Shown: piece by piece, positions 422 through 19,810 of the stretch
Layout of the letters: the number at the start of each line of letters is the position of its first letter
Numbering within the stretch: the stretch's first letter is position 1
Virus record (IMG/VR): IMGVR_UViG_3300049482_000066
Coordinates: 1-23,362 of that record
Reading direction: 5' to 3' (one strand)
DNA: 23,362 nucleotides
DNA from: a virus
Made by a program: the position numbers and the translations under genes
The notes under the pieces: generated by a model
Database searches by the model: none
What the model was told of the DNA's origin: nothing
The model's input: only the letters and a program-made list of their open reading frames with translations

Positions 422-895
422 ATGTCAGACGACGAACAGGACATAGACATCCCCGCCGAGGAACTGGCGAGGCGTTCCATCTTCGCCTCCCACGTCGCCC
501 GTGGGTCCGCCATACCTGACGCCCTGCATGCGGCCGGATACAGTTCCAACGCGCTGCATCTGGGTTGGACGCTCCTCTCTTACCCGGATGTGCGCGTTGA
601 GGTAGATAGACACAGGCAATACATACGCGACAAGCAGGCCCGCTCCGTCGGTGAACTCATCGAGCAGCTCGACCGTGACCGTGAATTTGCCATCGAAACA
701 AGGAACGCCGCCACGGCCGTCGCGGCCACGCTCGCCCAGGCGCGTATACTTGGCGCACTTGATCCCGCCACCGCTGCACTCAAGGCAGGCCAGAAGCGGC
801 TCGTACTCACCTGGGGCGGCGAAGACCTCTCCGATATCACGCCTGAGCGAATAGTAGAGCTTTTACCCCTGCAGAGGACCGGAACCGAGGAATGA
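422..895 (+). CDS. terminase small subunit (predicted)
   Basis: The protein is 157 residues from ATG 422. TerS recognises phage DNA and delivers it to the TerL motor. The N-terminal half resembles the helix-turn-helix fold of the Terminase_2-type small subunit: a stretch like FASHVARGSAIPDALHAAGY, then LLSYPDVRVEVDRHRQYIRD, in the usual 'natural gene set plus AGYS plus repeated helix' order. Helical coiled-coil-like sequence follows, and the end is acidic (DLSDITPERIVELLP). It directly precedes TerL with a 4-base ATGA overlap, the classic TerS-TerL arrangement. The frame stays open back to 101, but that upstream stretch is Arg/Cys-rich and overlaps the minus-strand gene, so I reject it. ATG 392 is an alternative start. 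Neither ATG has a clear Shine-Dalgarno. The family call is by motif resemblance and position only. Confidence 0.65.
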   Translation: MSDDEQDIDIPAEELARRSIFASHVARGSAIPDALHAAGYSSNALHLGWTLLSYPDVRVEVDRHRQYIRDKQARSVGELIEQLDRDREFAIETRNAATAVAATLAQARILGALDPATAALKAGQKRLVLTWGGEDLSDITPERIVELLPLQRTGTEE

Positions 896-2259
896 ACCCC
901 GAGGCCGCATATAATTCCATCTCACGGTCGCCGCGCGCCAACCCGCGCATACCCGTCGATCTGCGCCCTCTCGACAGGTCCGATCCGCAACAAGTCATCC
1001 AGCTGCCCTATACTCCACGAAGAGTATTTCTGCCCTATCATCGCCGCACCCAGCGCTTTGCCGCCATCGTGGCCCACCGTAGATGCGGCAAGACCGTCGC
1101 CGAGATCAACGAATGCATCGTCCGTCTCAGCCGCGTCGAAAGATCCTTTCCGCCTCCCCAGGTCGCCTACATCTCCCCTACCTTCTCACAGGGCAAGCGC
1201 AACGCCTGGATGTATGCCAAGCACTACACCAGGGTGATCCCTGGGATGAAGACGCTCGAGGCGGAGACCACCTTGGTGTTTCCCAACGAAGCAAGGTTGA
1301 TACTTGCGGGCTCCGATAATTATGGCGGTCTTAGAGGAGTTTATCTCGATCACGCTTCCCTTGACGAATATGCCATCCAGGATCCGCGCATTTGGACTGA
1401 GGTCATCCGGGCGAGCCTCAGTGAATATGCCGGTTCGGCTACTTTTATCGGCTCTGCCTATGGACGAAACCACTTCTACGACATTGTCCACGACTACGAA
1501 GACGACCCGGACTGGCTGATCATGACGCTCAAGGCGTCACAAACCGGGATCCTCTCCCAAAAAGAGCTTGATCTCGCCAAAAAGGCCATGCCGCCCGAGG
1601 AATACGCGCAGGAATACGAGTGTTCCTTCGATGCAGCGGTCAAAGGCACGTTCTTCGGGGCCGAAATCGAGCGCGCCGAGAACGAGAGGCGCATCACCAA
1701 CGTCTCTCACGACACCAATGCCAACGTATTGGCTGCTATGGACTTAGGCATTGGTGGCGGCGCATCATTGTGGATCTACCAGCTCGTCGCCAACAACATT
1801 CATCTTCTCAAGTTCATACAAGATAAAGACCAAGCCCTGCCGTATTACGCCGAGTGGATGGATCGGCTGCCCTACAAGGTCCACACGCTCTATCTGCCGC
1901 ATGATGCGGAACAAAGAGACCTCCAGACCGGCCTCACCCGCACCCAATTCTTCCAGAACCGTGGTTTTAATACTTTCCTGTTGCCCAAGGTGAGTGAACA
2001 TGGCTCCATTGCCGCTGCCAGGGTGGCGTTTTCCAGGTGTTGGTTTGACAAGACGGGCACCCGGGACGGCATTGACTGTCTCAGGATGTTCCGACGTGCC
2101 TGGGATCCAAAACGCAAGGTTTTCAGTGAAAACGCTTTTAAGGACTGGGCCTCACACGGCGGTGATGGTTTCAGATACGTCATACAATCCACCCCCTACG
2201 GCCAAAACAACTCCGATTGGTCGAAACCGATAAGACGAAACCTGCGGGTGGTGGTATGA
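892..2259 (+). CDS. terminase large subunit, DNA-packaging ATPase/nuclease
   Basis: The protein is 455 residues, the usual length for a phage TerL. It pumps DNA into the prohead with ATP and cuts the concatemer. The ATPase half shows Walker A AHRRCGKT (61-68), Walker B ending in LDEY (157-160, acidic pair D158 E159) and a coupling-like motif FIGSAYGRNHF (185-195). The C-terminal RNase H-like nuclease shows three acidic positions in the expected order: D284 in AAMDLGIG, D338 in LYLPHDAE and D425 in HGGDGFRY. All key residues are present, so it should be active. Its start overlaps the TerS stop by four bases, and its stop overlaps the start of the 38-residue membrane peptide by four bases. The type of genome end (cos or pac) cannot be told from this sequence. 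Confidence 0.95.
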   Translation: MNPEAAYNSISRSPRANPRIPVDLRPLDRSDPQQVIQLPYTPRRVFLPYHRRTQRFAAIVAHRRCGKTVAEINECIVRLSRVERSFPPPQVAYISPTFSQGKRNAWMYAKHYTRVIPGMKTLEAETTLVFPNEARLILAGSDNYGGLRGVYLDHASLDEYAIQDPRIWTEVIRASLSEYAGSATFIGSAYGRNHFYDIVHDYEDDPDWLIMTLKASQTGILSQKELDLAKKAMPPEEYAQEYECSFDAAVKGTFFGAEIERAENERRITNVSHDTNANVLAAMDLGIGGGASLWIYQLVANNIHLLKFIQDKDQALPYYAEWMDRLPYKVHTLYLPHDAEQRDLQTGLTRTQFFQNRGFNTFLLPKVSEHGSIAAARVAFSRCWFDKTGTRDGIDCLRMFRRAWDPKRKVFSENAFKDWASHGGDGFRYVIQSTPYGQNNSDWSKPIRRNLRVVV

Positions 2260-2372
2260 CGCGCGGAATAGATTGGCAGGAGCGTCTTTTGAAGACGGCG
2301 ATCATACTTGGCATCGCGGCGCTGCTGGTGGCGGCCGGAATGACGTTTTTGTGGCTTGGGGGAACTGACTGA
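2256..2372 (+). CDS. 38-residue single-pass membrane peptide
   Basis: This short ORF fits exactly between TerL and portal. Its ATG overlaps the TerL stop (ATGA), and its TGA overlaps the portal ATG (TGATG). The peptide begins MTRGIDWQERLLKTAIILGI and continues through a hydrophobic helix of about 20 residues (roughly 15-36, rich in Ile, Leu, Ala and Val) to a short polar end. Basic residues at the N-terminus suggest N-in topology. Precise overlap at both ends and a coherent amphipathic-then-hydrophobic sequence argue that it is translated. I do not recognise a family. A small holin- or pinholin-like role, or an inner-membrane role in assembly, is possible, but the better holin candidate is near the endolysin at 14145. 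The function is unknown. Confidence 0.65.
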   Translation: MTRGIDWQERLLKTAIILGIAALLVAAGMTFLWLGGTD

Positions 2373-4540
2373 TGTTCAAAAGCACACTCAAGAAGGCCAA
2401 GAAGGTCTTGAAGCCCATCCCGCAGGAAGCATTCGAGAGGATCATCAAGGATGAAATACTTCACGCCATCTCCTTCGTCACCTCCAGCCTCGTCAGCGGC
2501 AGAATACTTGCCGACAAGTACTTCCAGGGCGAAAGCAAGCTGCCTCATGAGACCGGAAGAAGTGGTGTTATTGTTACCTGTGTTCGCGATGGAGTTAGGA
2601 GCGTATTGCCGTCGATGGCACGCATCTTCACGCAGTCTGACACGGTGGCGGAATTTAACTCTGATGACGAAGAAGATGAGCAGATCTGCGAGCAGATGAC
2701 GCTCTTCGTAAATTCTGTCTATGACCGCTTTGGCGGCTACGAAGCGCTGATCCAGGGCTGCACGGATGCCCTGAAGGCCCGGGTTGGCGTGGTCAAGGTA
2801 ACGCTCGAGCAGAAAACCATTTCGACGCACCAGAAAGACCTCGTTCTTCCGCCCACGGAGCTTCCCTCGCTCGAGGAAGACCCCAATGCGCAGGTAACCG
2901 AAGTATCAGAGCCGTTTGACGGTGAAGACGGCGCTCCCGTCGTCCAGGCCGTCCAAACCAGACAGAATATAAGGAAGATATGGCACCTCGACACGGTGCC
3001 GCCCGAGAATTTCATCGTCAATGCATCCGCGACGTGCCTGGAGGATGCTCGCCTCATTGGTACTGTCGAAATCATGCGGATATACGATGCCGCCTCGATG
3101 GGGCTCGACCCGGAAGAACTCATCGCCATGCGCGGCTCGACCGACGAGAGCGCCATGTCGGATTACGAGAGCGGCGAGCGCGCCACCTACTACGTCAACA
3201 ACAACGAGCCTGACGCAGACGAAAAAGACCCGATGTCAGACGACATCACCATCGCTGAGATTTGGCTTCGTATAGATGCGGACGGTGATGGTGTCGCCGA
3301 GTTGCGACACATTATAACAGGCGGTTCCGAATATAAGATACTTCTGGATGAGCCGGTTAACTTCGTGCCACTCGGTATCTTCAAGACAGACCTGCAGCCG
3401 CATGTGTTTTTCCCTATCTCGCTCGCCGAGGATTTGATCCAGGATCAGGATGCGCAGACAGCGTTGCTCAGGTCAATACTCGACAACGCAGCACTGACCA
3501 ATAATCCGCAGCGCGCCTTCAATGAGAGCATGGTCAATGCCGAGGATATGGCAAACTCCGAGATCGGCGCGATGATCCGCACCAAGGGCCCCGGGCAGAT
3601 CGAGGAATTGACGACCCCGTTCGTGGCGGGCCAGACGCTGCCTGTTCTCCAGTATCTGGAGGAGGTCAGTGAAAAGAGATCCGGTATTTCAAGGATGAGC
3701 CAGGGCCTTGATCCCGACGCGCTCCAAAGCACCACCAAGATCGCCGCCAATGCAGCCGTGATGGGCGCTGACGCGCGCATGGAGATGATGGCCCGCAACG
3801 CAGGCGAGACGGGTATTAAATCTATGTTTTTGGCCAGTGCCAGGATTGCCATGAACGAGCTGCGCGGGCCGCAGTCTCTGAAAACCATGACCGGCTACCA
3901 GGAGGTGCTTCCAGACATCTGGCACGACCAGATCGGCGTGTCCGTCAATGTAGGCCTCGGGAACGGAAGGATCGACAGCAAGATCATGGCGCTTACTGCT
4001 GTCGCGGCCGTGCAGACCCAGGCGATCATGACGCTCGGCATGGCTAATCCGGTGTGCGGCTGGGAGCAGTTCCGCAACACCCAGAAACAGCTCCTCCGTC
4101 TTGCCGGGGAAAAGTCGATCAACCCTTATTTCCCGAGGGTCGACCCGAAGGTTCTCCAGCAGCTCGACCAGCAGCAGGCGGAGAAGGCGGCCCAGGCCAA
4201 CCAGGGTACGCCCGCACCGGATCTGGTGGGGGCCGAAAAGGTCAAGGGCGAGGTCAAGATGAAGGTTTCGGCGGCCGAGCTGCAGCAGAAGGGCCAGCTC
4301 AAGTCTGCCGAGATCGCCCAGAAAGGTCAGCAGGAGGCTCAGCAGCTCAAGACCACGACCGAGAGCGAGCTGCTGCGTGAGATGATGGCTGACGACCGTG
4401 AGCGCGACAAGCAGGCGGGCGATTATGCCGTCGCCGCCCAGAAGGTCCAGCTCGACGATGCCACCAAGCGGCAGGTGGCGATTGAACAGGCACAAGCCCG
4501 GCCCATGCCTGGGGCCAATGGAAAGGCAAAGGTGCAATGA
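2372..4540 (+). CDS. portal protein, P22-like family
   Basis: The protein is 722 residues. The portal forms the dodecameric ring at one head vertex through which DNA enters and leaves. The length, the position after TerL and the core match the P22-type portal family. Typical stretches are AEDLIQDQDAQTALLRSILD with NAALTNNPQRAFN following, then RSGISRMSQGLDPDALQSTT with a helix around AAVMGADARMEMMARNAGETG. Acidic, variable insertions lie around residues 155-195. The last 130 residues or so are Gln/Lys/Ala-rich and look like a long helix or coiled coil, as in the portal barrel or crown. ATG 2372 overlaps the stop of the preceding micro-ORF, and the stop overlaps the next gene by four bases. 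No damage is seen. Confidence 0.9.
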   Translation: MFKSTLKKAKKVLKPIPQEAFERIIKDEILHAISFVTSSLVSGRILADKYFQGESKLPHETGRSGVIVTCVRDGVRSVLPSMARIFTQSDTVAEFNSDDEEDEQICEQMTLFVNSVYDRFGGYEALIQGCTDALKARVGVVKVTLEQKTISTHQKDLVLPPTELPSLEEDPNAQVTEVSEPFDGEDGAPVVQAVQTRQNIRKIWHLDTVPPENFIVNASATCLEDARLIGTVEIMRIYDAASMGLDPEELIAMRGSTDESAMSDYESGERATYYVNNNEPDADEKDPMSDDITIAEIWLRIDADGDGVAELRHIITGGSEYKILLDEPVNFVPLGIFKTDLQPHVFFPISLAEDLIQDQDAQTALLRSILDNAALTNNPQRAFNESMVNAEDMANSEIGAMIRTKGPGQIEELTTPFVAGQTLPVLQYLEEVSEKRSGISRMSQGLDPDALQSTTKIAANAAVMGADARMEMMARNAGETGIKSMFLASARIAMNELRGPQSLKTMTGYQEVLPDIWHDQIGVSVNVGLGNGRIDSKIMALTAVAAVQTQAIMTLGMANPVCGWEQFRNTQKQLLRLAGEKSINPYFPRVDPKVLQQLDQQQAEKAAQANQGTPAPDLVGAEKVKGEVKMKVSAAELQQKGQLKSAEIAQKGQQEAQQLKTTTESELLREMMADDRERDKQAGDYAVAAQKVQLDDATKRQVAIEQAQARPMPGANGKAKVQ

Positions 4541-8415: not shown

Positions 8416-8763
8416 GCCATCTGGTTGGACCGGGATATCACTCTGACTTCGCCGTGGTCGGCAATACCTTCCGGCGTCAGTACCAGTGCAAGGCGGAGAA
8501 CGGTACGGCGGTCAATTTGACCGGCTACACGGTCAAGTGGCGCGGCGTCTATGGCGACACCATCATCGAGAAGTCGACGGCGTCTGGTACCCTGTCGATG
8601 ACTACGCCGTCCAACGGTACTATCACCCTGACCTTGACGCCCACCGAGACGCGCCTGATCCCGGTCGAGCAGAACATGCGCTACGAGCTGGAGTTGATCG
8701 CCCCGGACCTGACCCAGCAGACGGTGCTGTGGGGCGACTTGGTCGGCAAGGGGGGTGCCACCA

Positions 8764-8771
<8 letters not shown>
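8412..8771 (+). CDS. Ig/BppU-N-like beta domain virion protein
   Basis: The protein is 119 residues. It starts in the ATGA overlap with the adaptor. The sequence [20 protein letters not shown], then [13 protein letters not shown] and later [19 protein letters not shown] with YELELIAPD, follows the pattern of small beta-sandwich modules found beside tail-fibre genes (BppU N-terminal-like: 'nLTGatv....GtitltLtp.eT..l..g.Y.yel'). It probably mediates attachment or docking of the adhesin encoded next. It ends inside the start region of the collagen-like gene. The role is inferred from fold pattern and neighbourhood. Confidence 0.6.
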
Positions 8772-9941
<1,170 letters not shown>

Positions 9942-9942
<1 letters not shown>

Positions 9943-13355: not shown

Positions 13356-14144
13356 ATGGACAGGGCAGCCTTCTTTGATGTGATGCGCGATGAGTTTGGT
13401 TCGCTGTCCCAGTCGCAGGTCGAGGGCACCGAGGCGCTGCTCGATGCTGCGGAAGAGTATCAACTGCCGATGAACCAGCTCTCCTATGTGCTGAGTACGA
13501 GCTGGCATGAGACTGCGGCAACCATGATGCCCATCGCTGAGTATGGAAAAGGCGAAGGCCATGAGTATGGTGAACCGTGCCCGGAGTATAATGATCAAGT
13601 GGCCTATGGCCGTGGGTATGTGCAGCTCACTTGGGACTATAACTATGAAAAAGCCGACAGTGAGTGTTCCCTTAACGGCGCTCTATTGGAAGATTTTGAA
13701 CTTGCCCTCGACCCAGTCATCGCCTCCCAGATCATCTTCAGAGGAATGCTCGAAGGCTGGTTCACTGGAAAAAAGCTAGGCGACTATGTCAACGAGACGG
13801 TCACTGATTACTACAATGCTCGGCGTGTCGTTAATGGTACCGACAAGGCCGACATGCTCGCTGGCTATGCCGAGAGTTTCGAGCAGGCGCTTAGAGCTGC
13901 CAAGTATGGCGAGCCTGAGCCTGTGGACCCAGACGAAATCACTACGCCGCCCGAAGAGGGCGAGCATCCTCCACCGCTAGAGCCGCTGCCGCCGCGTGTG
14001 CTAAAACAAAAGAAGTACGACTACATTGTCCATCGCACCGACGTCGACGAGTTCGAGGCGCAGCTCAACAGGCTGGGTGCATTGGGCTGGCGACTGGTGC
14101 AGATGGGCGGCGACATCATCATCATGGAGCGCGTCAGAAGGTGA
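13356..14144 (+). CDS. GH19-like endolysin with C-terminal DUF4177-like domain
   Basis: The protein is 262 residues. The N-terminal ~182 residues follow the chitinase-like glycoside hydrolase 19 pattern of phage endolysins that cleave peptidoglycan. SWHETAATM (49-57) carries the likely catalytic E52, E62 in AEYGKG is a possible second acid, and YGRGYVQLTWDYNY (84-97) and YYNARRVVNG (152-161) match the conserved substrate-groove motifs. A Pro/Glu-rich linker (about 186-214) leads to a C-terminal domain (218-262) with KKYDYIVHRTDVDEFEAQLN and LGALGWRLVQM, the pattern of the small DUF4177 domain. There is no signal peptide or SAR helix, so export through the neighbouring holin is expected. The stop abuts the holin-like ATG. 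The enzyme class is well supported. The role of the C-terminal domain is unknown. Confidence 0.8.
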   Translation: MDRAAFFDVMRDEFGSLSQSQVEGTEALLDAAEEYQLPMNQLSYVLSTSWHETAATMMPIAEYGKGEGHEYGEPCPEYNDQVAYGRGYVQLTWDYNYEKADSECSLNGALLEDFELALDPVIASQIIFRGMLEGWFTGKKLGDYVNETVTDYYNARRVVNGTDKADMLAGYAESFEQALRAAKYGEPEPVDPDEITTPPEEGEHPPPLEPLPPRVLKQKKYDYIVHRTDVDEFEAQLNRLGALGWRLVQMGGDIIIMERVRR

Positions 14145-14414
14145 ATGAGGGAGTTCGACACAACCAAGGGTGCATTCCTTTTAGTGGCGATGATCATTGC
14201 CACGATGATGGCGTTGCTGTTTCTTGGTATGGGGACATGCACTTTTTTGGCTATTACTGGTCGGGCTATGCCCGTTTGTACCGATCTAAAGGACTTTGCC
14301 AAAGAATTGATCACCATGAGTTTTACGGCAGCGATTGCCTTTGCCGGGGGGAGAATGAGCGCCCCCGCCGCGCCTCCCCCGCCGAAATTGCCTGACAAGG
14401 ACAAGAAGCCATGA
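14145..14414 (+). CDS. holin-like small membrane protein
   Basis: The protein is 89 residues and starts directly after the endolysin stop. After a short polar N-terminus (MREFDTTK) comes a long hydrophobic segment (GAFLLVAMIIATMMALLFLG, with residues to about 37, possibly one long helix or a hairpin). A second, weaker hydrophobic segment follows around 55-69 (LITMSFTAAIAFAGG), then a Pro/Lys-rich basic tail (PPPPKLPDKDKKP). Two membrane segments with a short charged C-terminus next to an endolysin is the usual holin pattern. No family is recognised by sequence, so the name rests on topology and position. Its stop overlaps the next ATG (ATGA). Confidence 0.65.
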   Translation: MREFDTTKGAFLLVAMIIATMMALLFLGMGTCTFLAITGRAMPVCTDLKDFAKELITMSFTAAIAFAGGRMSAPAAPPPPKLPDKDKKP

Positions 14415-18552: not shown

Positions 18553-18945
18553 ATGAACGCACCCGCTGAGTTCCCGACACAACGAATAGTGAACAGGCTG
18601 CGTCGATGGCGTCCTCTTATTGAGCGGGCCATCCGTGACGCTGACCTGATGACCTACGAGGACATCGAGCGTGGCGTTGTCGAACAGAAGATGTGGCTGT
18701 TTGATACTCCCAGGGCGTTTGCCGTCGTGCAGATATTTGATTATACCAAGGGTCGGGTTGGCCATGTGCTGGCGGCTGGCGGCTCCATCCAGGGGCTGAA
18801 GGAGCTGCAGGAGCTTTCCACCCCATTCTTCAAAGAGATCGGCGCGCGACGTCTCACAATGACAGGGCGCCAAGGGTTCATGAGGCGGCTTCCAGCACTC
18901 GGCTGGACGCAGCCTCGCATCTATATGGAGTTCAATTATGGGTGA
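18553..18945 (+). CDS. GNAT-like fold phage protein
   Basis: The protein is 130 residues. It opens with a polar N-terminus and an Arg-rich helix (RLRRWRPLIERAIRDADLMT), followed by a beta-alpha pattern: MWLFDTPRAFAVVQIFDYTK, VGHVLAAGGSIQGLKELQEL and RRLTMTGRQGFMRRLPALGW. This reproduces the general order of a GNAT-like fold. I recall similar sequences in alphaproteobacterial phages beside ejection proteins (W.f....a.av.ei.dyp...v.h...aGGd...l......l..w....g...v.ltGR.GW.r.lp), but cannot confirm an active site. I do not claim acetyltransferase activity. The following gene starts eight bases before its stop. Confidence 0.65.
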   Translation: MNAPAEFPTQRIVNRLRRWRPLIERAIRDADLMTYEDIERGVVEQKMWLFDTPRAFAVVQIFDYTKGRVGHVLAAGGSIQGLKELQELSTPFFKEIGARRLTMTGRQGFMRRLPALGWTQPRIYMEFNYG

Positions 18946-19810
18946 CATCCTTGGCGGCGGCGGTGGCGGCGGTGGATCCGGGGGCGACGAGACCAACACC
19001 ACCGAGAAGGCCCTGCCAAGTCCGGCCCAGATCGCCGCGACACGCGAGGCTTTCAACACGGCCTCCGGTATAGCCGGTGTCGCCAAGAACCTCCCCTATT
19101 ATGCGCAGATTGCCTCGAGCCCCGGCTATCGTCAGGCGCTTCAGAACACCGCGAATACCTGGTCGGACTGGATGGGCACTGCGCCGATGGATCTATCCCA
19201 GGGCTCAGCACCCATCACCCACGGCCAGTTCGGTGACGTGATCGATGCCGGGAAGGCGATGGAACAGAAGATCGCTGGCATGTCACCACAGATCCAGAAG
19301 ATCCTGCAGCAGTATACTGGCCCCGGAGCAATCGCTCAGGGCGATGCCTATTCGCCTGCCATCTACGACCCCTACGTGCAGCAGAAGCCGTTGCTGCACC
19401 AGGGTACGGCTGCGCAAGGTGGTGTGGGTACGATTGGCGCGGGTGGCATCCCGGTCACGGCACTACCGGGTACCGGCACTGGCACTGGCACTGGCACTGG
19501 CACAGGAACGGGCACTGGTACGGGCACTGGTACGGGCACTGGTACGGGCACTGGTACGGGCACAGGAACCGGTGGCACCATTCGGTTTGGTGGTAAAATT
19601 TATAAGAAGAACAGCAAGGGCCAGTACGTCCTAGTCGGTGGCTACAATCGAACCGGGAGCAACCAAGGCGGTCAGGGCGGCATGGGCCAGGGCGGTCTAG
19701 CCGCGCGTGGAGGCATGGCTCGTGGACCAACGAATATTAATCCCGGCGGTGGTGGCTGGTTTAGTGGAAGTAGTGCAGGCGGTGGTTTCAACCACGGCTT
19801 TGCTTCTTAG
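18938..19810 (+). CDS. Gly-rich predicted ejection/internal virion protein with (Gly-Thr)17 tract
   Basis: The protein is 290 residues. A poly-Gly N-terminus (MGDILGGGGGGGGSGGDE) precedes a polar helical region with PAQIAATREAFNTASGIAG and YRQALQNTANTWSDWMGTAP, then MEQKIAGMSPQIQKILQQYT. Residues 178-211 are an unbroken run of 17 Gly-Thr pairs. A short beta-like part (GTIRFGGKIYKKNSKGQYVL) and a Gly-rich C-terminus follow. The overall low-complexity design and the place after GNAT-like and before other Gly/Ala-rich proteins suggest a flexible internal or tail-channel protein released with DNA. No family is recognised. The ATG overlaps the previous gene by eight bases. Confidence 0.65.
   Translation: MGDILGGGGGGGGSGGDETNTTEKALPSPAQIAATREAFNTASGIAGVAKNLPYYAQIASSPGYRQALQNTANTWSDWMGTAPMDLSQGSAPITHGQFGDVIDAGKAMEQKIAGMSPQIQKILQQYTGPGAIAQGDAYSPAIYDPYVQQKPLLHQGTAAQGGVGTIGAGGIPVTALPGTGTGTGTGTGTGTGTGTGTGTGTGTGTGTGTGTGGTIRFGGKIYKKNSKGQYVLVGGYNRTGSNQGGQGGMGQGGLAARGGMARGPTNINPGGGGWFSGSSAGGGFNHGFAS
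19469..19570 (+). repeat. minisatellite coding (Gly-Thr)17
   Basis: The 102-nt stretch is 17 hexamers, each coding Gly-Thr, in the order GGTACC, four GGCACT, GGCACA, GGAACG, four 12-mers GGCACTGGTACG, GGCACA, GGAACC. The exact 4x repeat of the 12-mer (19511-19558) is flanked by GGCACA GGAAC[G/C] on both sides. All units are multiples of 3, so copy-number change would alter length without breaking the frame. Confidence 0.9.

Follow-up and report, generated by a model that had tools for sequence, protein, structure and literature searches.

The micro-gene between terL and portal

The stretch of DNA analysed here, referred to as the window, comprises the 23,362 nucleotides of IMG/VR virus record IMGVR_UViG_3300049482_000066. 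Its plus strand encodes the terminase large subunit (TerL, 892..2259; phrog_2, E 1.6e-24) and the portal protein (2372..4540; phrog_1216, E 4.1e-96), and between them lies a plus-strand micro-gene (2256..2372) whose translation, MTRGIDWQERLLKTAIILGIAALLVAAGMTFLWLGGTD, is 38 amino acids long. The ATG at 2256 shares bases with the TerL stop codon TGA at 2257-2259 (ATGA), and at its other end the portal ATG, at 2372, shares a base with the micro-gene stop codon TGA (2370-2372). A sequence-only reading of the window had pointed out this frame as interlocked with both neighbours, and its coordinates and overlaps proved exact. An alternative TTG start at 2217 would give a frame of 51 amino acids; the one relative that carries the gene, contig L002, keeps the start at the TerL stop (as GTG).

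The single hydrophobic helix ascribed to the peptide in the same reading was also found, with a mean Kyte-Doolittle hydropathy of 2.43 over the best 19-residue stretch. AlphaFold2, run on the single sequence, predicted one helix covering residues 3-36 (mean pLDDT 86.8), a model that adds little to what the sequence says. In the predicted topology the peptide spans the inner membrane once; its charged N-terminus (MTRGIDWQERLLK) lies inside and a short tail at the C-terminus outside. Searches against PHROG, Pfam and NCBIfam models gave no confident match (best E 0.094, 0.69 and 0.093, respectively), and tblastn against 50,697 phage records gave no match. A DNA pattern covering the peptide's conserved part retrieved only L002 from viral contigs and nothing from genome contigs. 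The peptide was also sought in six related records and found in none, an empty answer that is uninformative since the search had no positive control.

An open frame of this length is not in itself remarkable, as 30.4% of dinucleotide shuffles of the stretch remain open. A frame that is both open and as hydrophobic was not reached in 5,000 shuffles, and among same-length stretches of the window (n = 46,502, both strands, every offset) the proportion was 0.12%. Further evidence comes from L002, an IMG/VR contig of 4,919 bases with a portal 86% identical to that of the window. Its homolog (L002:418-528) has 36 amino acids, is 75% identical to the micro-gene peptide and starts with GTG at the equivalent TerL overlap; the length change of 6 nt is in frame, and the overlaps with the TerL stop and the portal start are both preserved. 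The 35 aligned codons contain 29 nucleotide differences, distributed 9/4/16 over the codon positions, and 9 amino-acid changes versus 17.8 expected if substitutions were placed at random. Among 20,000 random placements none gave 9 or fewer amino-acid changes, and 48% created a stop codon. The dN/dS ratio of the micro-gene is about 0.12 and that of the portal gene of the same pair 0.09, with a dS of 1.5 that is near saturation; for the TerL part dS lay beyond the formula. Purifying selection thus acts on the amino acids of the peptide, as measured in one sequence pair, the window and L002. Residues 6-17 (DWQERLLKTAII) are identical in both and, should the positive-inside rule apply, would face the cytoplasm. 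Because L002 keeps the allele with an in-frame length change, a low dN/dS and a substitution pattern not reached by random placement, the micro-gene is very likely a genuine gene. The selection and the retained overlaps led us to reject a chance open frame, to which we assign a negligible probability.

The terL-portal junction in related contigs

The junction was compared in 11 IMG/VR contigs in which it is readable, namely the window and ten contigs with portals 72-87% identical. The micro-gene peptide, designated TM-A, occupies it in two (window, L002), and a second one-helix family, TM-B, is present in three: alone in L005, followed in L004 by a 61-aa ORF that matches DUF4177 below threshold (E 0.021), and preceded in L010 by a 167-aa ORF. 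The TM-B peptides resemble TM-A in their position, in their length of 38-41 amino acids and in having one hydrophobic stretch, but form a sequence family of their own with a C-terminal WPxxPPP tail. Within TM-B, the L005 and L010 peptides are 50% and 45% identical to that of L004 (tblastn). TM-A is 29% and 23% identical to the L004 and L005 peptides in gapped alignment, at a length too short to test common ancestry. The L005 peptide had no tblastn match in the 50,697 phage records. The 167-aa ORF of L010 carries a DPPY-type motif, which we take to be methylase-like; ten phage records match it, one annotated as DNA methyltransferase (28%, 2e-9) and nine as hypothetical. It gave no Pfam match over the cut-off, and its AlphaFold2 model had a mean pLDDT of 39.

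In sum, one-helix peptides of two sequence families are found in five of the 11 contigs. Non-membrane genes occupy the junction in another five. Two of these (L003 and L007, identical) hold a hydrophilic 103-aa ORF of no known family that is unrelated to the micro-gene and, for L003, had no tblastn match in phages; two hold a Phage_gp49_66 gene (L006, E 1.1e-21; L008 identical); and L009 holds a 44-aa ORF together with an Acb2_Tad1_hairpin gene (L009:4674-4865, 2.6e-15, over the curated cut-off). The remaining contig, L017, has no ORF, and TerL abuts portal. The conservation of a membrane micro-ORF, proposed earlier as a check, therefore holds for five of the 11 close-clade contigs, and the arrangement named in advance as speaking against it, TerL directly next to portal, does occur; the peptide is no constant part of the junction. 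Counting the stop codon, the TerL-portal gap measures 115 nt in the window, 109 in L002, 313 in L003, 300 in L004, 138 in L005, 330 in L006, 453 in L009, 617 in L010 and 3 in L017. The TerL proteins in this comparison are 71-92% identical, those of L002 and L004 being represented by the C-terminal part only. With the flanking genes conserved, a slot gene found in some contigs is thus missing from close relatives or exchanged there for another; judged from these sequences, what lies between terL and portal is a variable cargo slot, with the micro-gene as one allele.

This variability bears on the idea that the peptide partners portal or terminase and tethers the assembly of procapsids, or packaging, to the membrane. 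The tight interlock with both genes would suit such a role, as would the recurrence of one-helix peptides in nearly half of the close contigs, but a core part would be expected to persist, and L003, with a TerL 91% identical, has the unrelated 103-aa ORF instead. A part in the packaging machine is unlikely because unrelated genes or none occupy the slot in close relatives; a fixed partner was rejected for this reason, and we consider the idea as a whole highly improbable. Because L017 lacks any slot ORF, the micro-gene is probably not needed for virion production.

Some contigs were left out of these counts: L018-L084 (TerL 30-42% identical, portal without tblastn match except L045 at 27%; junction not compared), L111 and L113-L141 (portal at most 31% identical; junction not compared), L146, and L092, L011 and L012 (contigs beginning inside portal). 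L001, L013-L016, L085-L089, L142-L145, L164, L167, L168, L171 and L172 duplicate the window or counted contigs. A scan with a TerL alignment gave nine loci and no new close relative. Scanning for the last TerL codons gave eight stretches, five in known contigs and three in new ones, where tblastn matched none of the window proteins that were tried; the tail motif of L004 and L005 gave three, two known and one likewise unmatched. A portal alignment in genome contigs produced 36 pattern matches and no relatives, and hence no host or prophage.

A wider set comprised 15 contigs in which tblastn identified TerL and the portal identity was 44-54%; they are not all independent, as L090/L091 and L098/L099 show identical junction ORFs. 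Eight of the 15 (L090, L091, L093, L103-L106, L108) have no ATG ORF of at least 28 amino acids in the slot, and seven (L094, L095, L098-L100, L102, L107) have a slot ORF. Among the latter, L095 carries an Acb2_Tad1_hairpin gene (L095:2276-2479, 1.3e-12, over the curated cut-off). None of the seven has a strongly hydrophobic slot gene, save for a 34-aa frame (mean 1.90) nested within the L107 ORF of 192 amino acids. Six more contigs, in whose fetched stretches tblastn did not identify TerL, fall outside the TerL-confirmed count; a slot ORF is present in L096 and L101, and in L097, L109, L110 and L112 the upstream ORF ends at the portal start. A small slot ORF beginning much like MSNAGPGLSPNKQAA recurs in L094, L095, L096 and L098-L102; in the three scanned (L094, L095, L098) it matched no Pfam model over the cut-off, and its PHROG matches did not improve on E 0.027. 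A further Acb2/Tad1-hairpin gene lies downstream of the slot in the record of L091 (L165:1462-1653), flanked by ORFs that by eye resemble the 122-aa and 214-aa ORFs of the window.

Among 14 named phages, TerL adjoins portal in seven, and one to six ORFs lie between them in five with an annotated TerL; in the other two, C72C1 and Octadecabacter DB virus 2, a large ORF without annotation was taken as TerL, and small ORFs come after it. The slot ORFs of the latter seven phages include no strong membrane helix, the highest hydropathy mean being 1.37. In what was compared, a membrane peptide in the terL-portal slot thus appears confined to the close clade. The cultivated Sinorhizobium phage phiM5 has a strongly hydrophobic 37-aa ORF (hydropathy 2.43), annotated as hypothetical, in the portal-scaffold interval (L148:5117-5230).

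Of the junctions compared, terL-portal differs most frequently. The portal-p81 and p81-scaffold gaps are -2 to 17 nt in the readable close-clade contigs, except for L004, which has an 843-nt insertion downstream of portal. A 288-aa ORF with an AYHGSPH stretch lies there between portal and the 81-aa gene (L004:2717-3583). Further downstream, larger gaps occur in L004 (129 nt) and L006 (289 nt). Between terS and terL, the window and L010 have no additional ORF and a gap of -1 nt. In L003 and L005 this gap measures 133 nt and harbours a 45-aa ORF (L003:208-345, L005:1208-1345) that overlaps both the TerS stop and the TerL start by ATGA. The two versions share 28 of 45 residues and differ 14/8/23 times at the three codon positions. 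This suggests that cargo slots are present at more than one packaging-gene junction.

Possible signals for expression of the slot genes

The last codons of TerL (..LRVVV, GGGTGGTGG) form a G-rich Shine-Dalgarno-like run directly 5' of the micro-gene start, with a computed anti-Shine-Dalgarno duplex energy of -7.2 kcal/mol (without shuffled control). A second run, GGGGGA (2358..2363, plus strand), precedes portal with -8.4 kcal/mol, a value equal in L002. Throughout the window, L002-L005, L009 and L010 the duplex energy, likewise without shuffled control, ranges from -7.2 to -9.0 kcal/mol at the cargo start and from -7.6 to -12.1 kcal/mol at the portal start; the corresponding values in L006 are -3.1 and -3.7 kcal/mol. 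In L017 the run before portal is supplied by TerL itself (-5.6 kcal/mol). The anti-Shine-Dalgarno bases used may not be those of the host, and the TerL run may be kept only for encoding LRVVV. Because of the start/stop overlaps and these runs, we infer coupled translation from terL via the micro-gene to portal. Ribosomes ending TerL would restart at the ATGA overlap, aided by the G-rich run in the last TerL codons, and those ending the micro-gene would restart on portal, aided by the similar run at the 3' end of the cargo.

The same signals, present at both ends of the micro-gene, would also be expected of a spacer or leader ORF that merely couples portal translation to that of terL and whose peptide is irrelevant. 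This is very improbable, since the amino acids are under purifying selection in the pair available and L017 joins TerL and portal without a micro-gene.

Between positions 1900 and 2700 no sigma-70-type promoter-like site was found, versus 0.5 expected (other promoter types fell outside the scan), and no terminator-like site on the plus strand; one occurs on the minus strand, with 0.9 expected. Because neither a promoter nor a terminator of its own was found, the micro-gene is cargo in a broad sense and not a classical, autonomously transcribed moron. Hotspots of antiviral genes in phages are known, for example in P2 and P4 (PMC9122126). Like phage morons and such hotspots, the slot holds interchangeable non-core genes between conserved genes, and one of its alleles belongs to a known anti-defence family. 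It differs from them in its very small cargo, its place inside the packaging cluster, the start/stop interlock and the lack of a promoter-like site. Homing nuclease genes close to terminase genes are already on record (PMC10448857). Neither 'transmembrane' nor 'moron' occurs in the available part of PMC10386132, which deals with podoviruses whose portals are related (phiGT1, phiM5, EPV2). A description of a terL-portal cargo slot was not recognised among the literature matches listed, which give titles and the start of abstracts and leave most subscription journals outside.

Lysis genes and possible function of the micro-gene

The window has a separate lysis module, consisting of an endolysin gene (13356..14144, plus strand; phrog_181, E 1.2e-21) and an adjoining gene (14145..14414, plus strand) for a hydrophobic, holin-like 89-aa protein without confident family match. 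Nine related records were searched. Endolysin matches were obtained in three, L109 (85%), L107 (47%) and L112 (44%), the other six being fragments of 6-13 kb. Each of the three has a relative of the 89-aa protein adjoining the endolysin (L161, 80%; L162, 51%; L163, 35%), in line with the holin-like label it had been given earlier. The endolysin match to the L109 record spans residues 1-208 only. A DUF4177 match below threshold, as seen for the 61-aa ORF of L004, also involves the C-terminal part of the window endolysin (14034-14108; E 0.0067).

Small phage membrane peptides include pinholins, antiholins and exclusion proteins, and the micro-gene peptide resembles these in being short, with one predicted helix and a predicted N-in/C-out topology. 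It differs in having no confident PHROG, Pfam or NCBIfam match and in its location outside the lysis module, about 11 kb from the endolysin/holin-like pair. The main-holin role was rejected and appears unlikely, because that pair lies elsewhere, also in relatives without a slot peptide: it coexists with an ORF-less slot in L109 and L112 (TerL not confirmed by tblastn) and with a methyltransferase-like slot ORF in L107. The peptide might still be an accessory, antiholin- or pinholin-like regulator tuning the main holin, presumably the 14145 protein. Single-helix peptides of about 38 amino acids can serve in this way, and small residues recur along the helix at A15/G19 and A22/A26/T30 (with S in place of A22 in L002), a spacing that favours helix packing. 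The distance to the lysis genes argues against such regulation, and the occurrence of the pair in the L109, L112 and L107 records without a slot peptide would make the peptide accessory at most; we regard this explanation as doubtful but not far-fetched.

The reading that we favour, and hold to be reasonably probable, is that the micro-gene encodes a translationally coupled, one-pass inner-membrane accessory peptide that is exchangeable, dispensable for packaging and probably directed at the host. Such a peptide would modify the infected cell, either by blocking a membrane-acting defence effector or by excluding competing phages. The host-directed role is a best guess from the position in the slot. 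Acb2/Tad1 sponges (PF24729), the only alternative allele whose role is known, occupy the equivalent slot in L009 and, more distantly, in L095; this allele is found in other genomes, its tie to the micro-gene is positional only, and the micro-gene peptide, unlike these proteins, has no PF24729 match. For most slot genes a host-directed role is not known.

CBASS and Thoeris use immune signals that Acb2 and Tad1 bind (PMC10286901, PMC12657218), and in the Panoptes system nucleotide sponges can trigger the membrane-disrupting effector OptE, which is related to Cap15 (PMC12657218). Because sponges trigger a membrane effector in Panoptes, a more specific version can be conceived in which the slot is a plug-in site for counter-defence genes expressed along with the packaging genes, and its one-helix peptides are a new class that holds membrane-disrupting effectors such as Cap15 and OptE inactive. 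The peptides would then pack against the transmembrane part of the effector, as an alternative to sponges such as Acb2, which act at an upstream step of the same pathways. We consider this version improbable. If the slot is a site for counter-defence cargo, its fixed position could serve as bait for small anti-defence genes in uncultivated phages, and would reach membrane peptides short enough to escape annotation. A gene wedged between two packaging genes need not serve packaging.

Repeat-containing frames were noted elsewhere in the window: the ORF at 8755-9942 has collagen-like Gly-x-Thr/Pro repeats, and an ORF at 18938-19810 contains a long Gly-Thr repeat.
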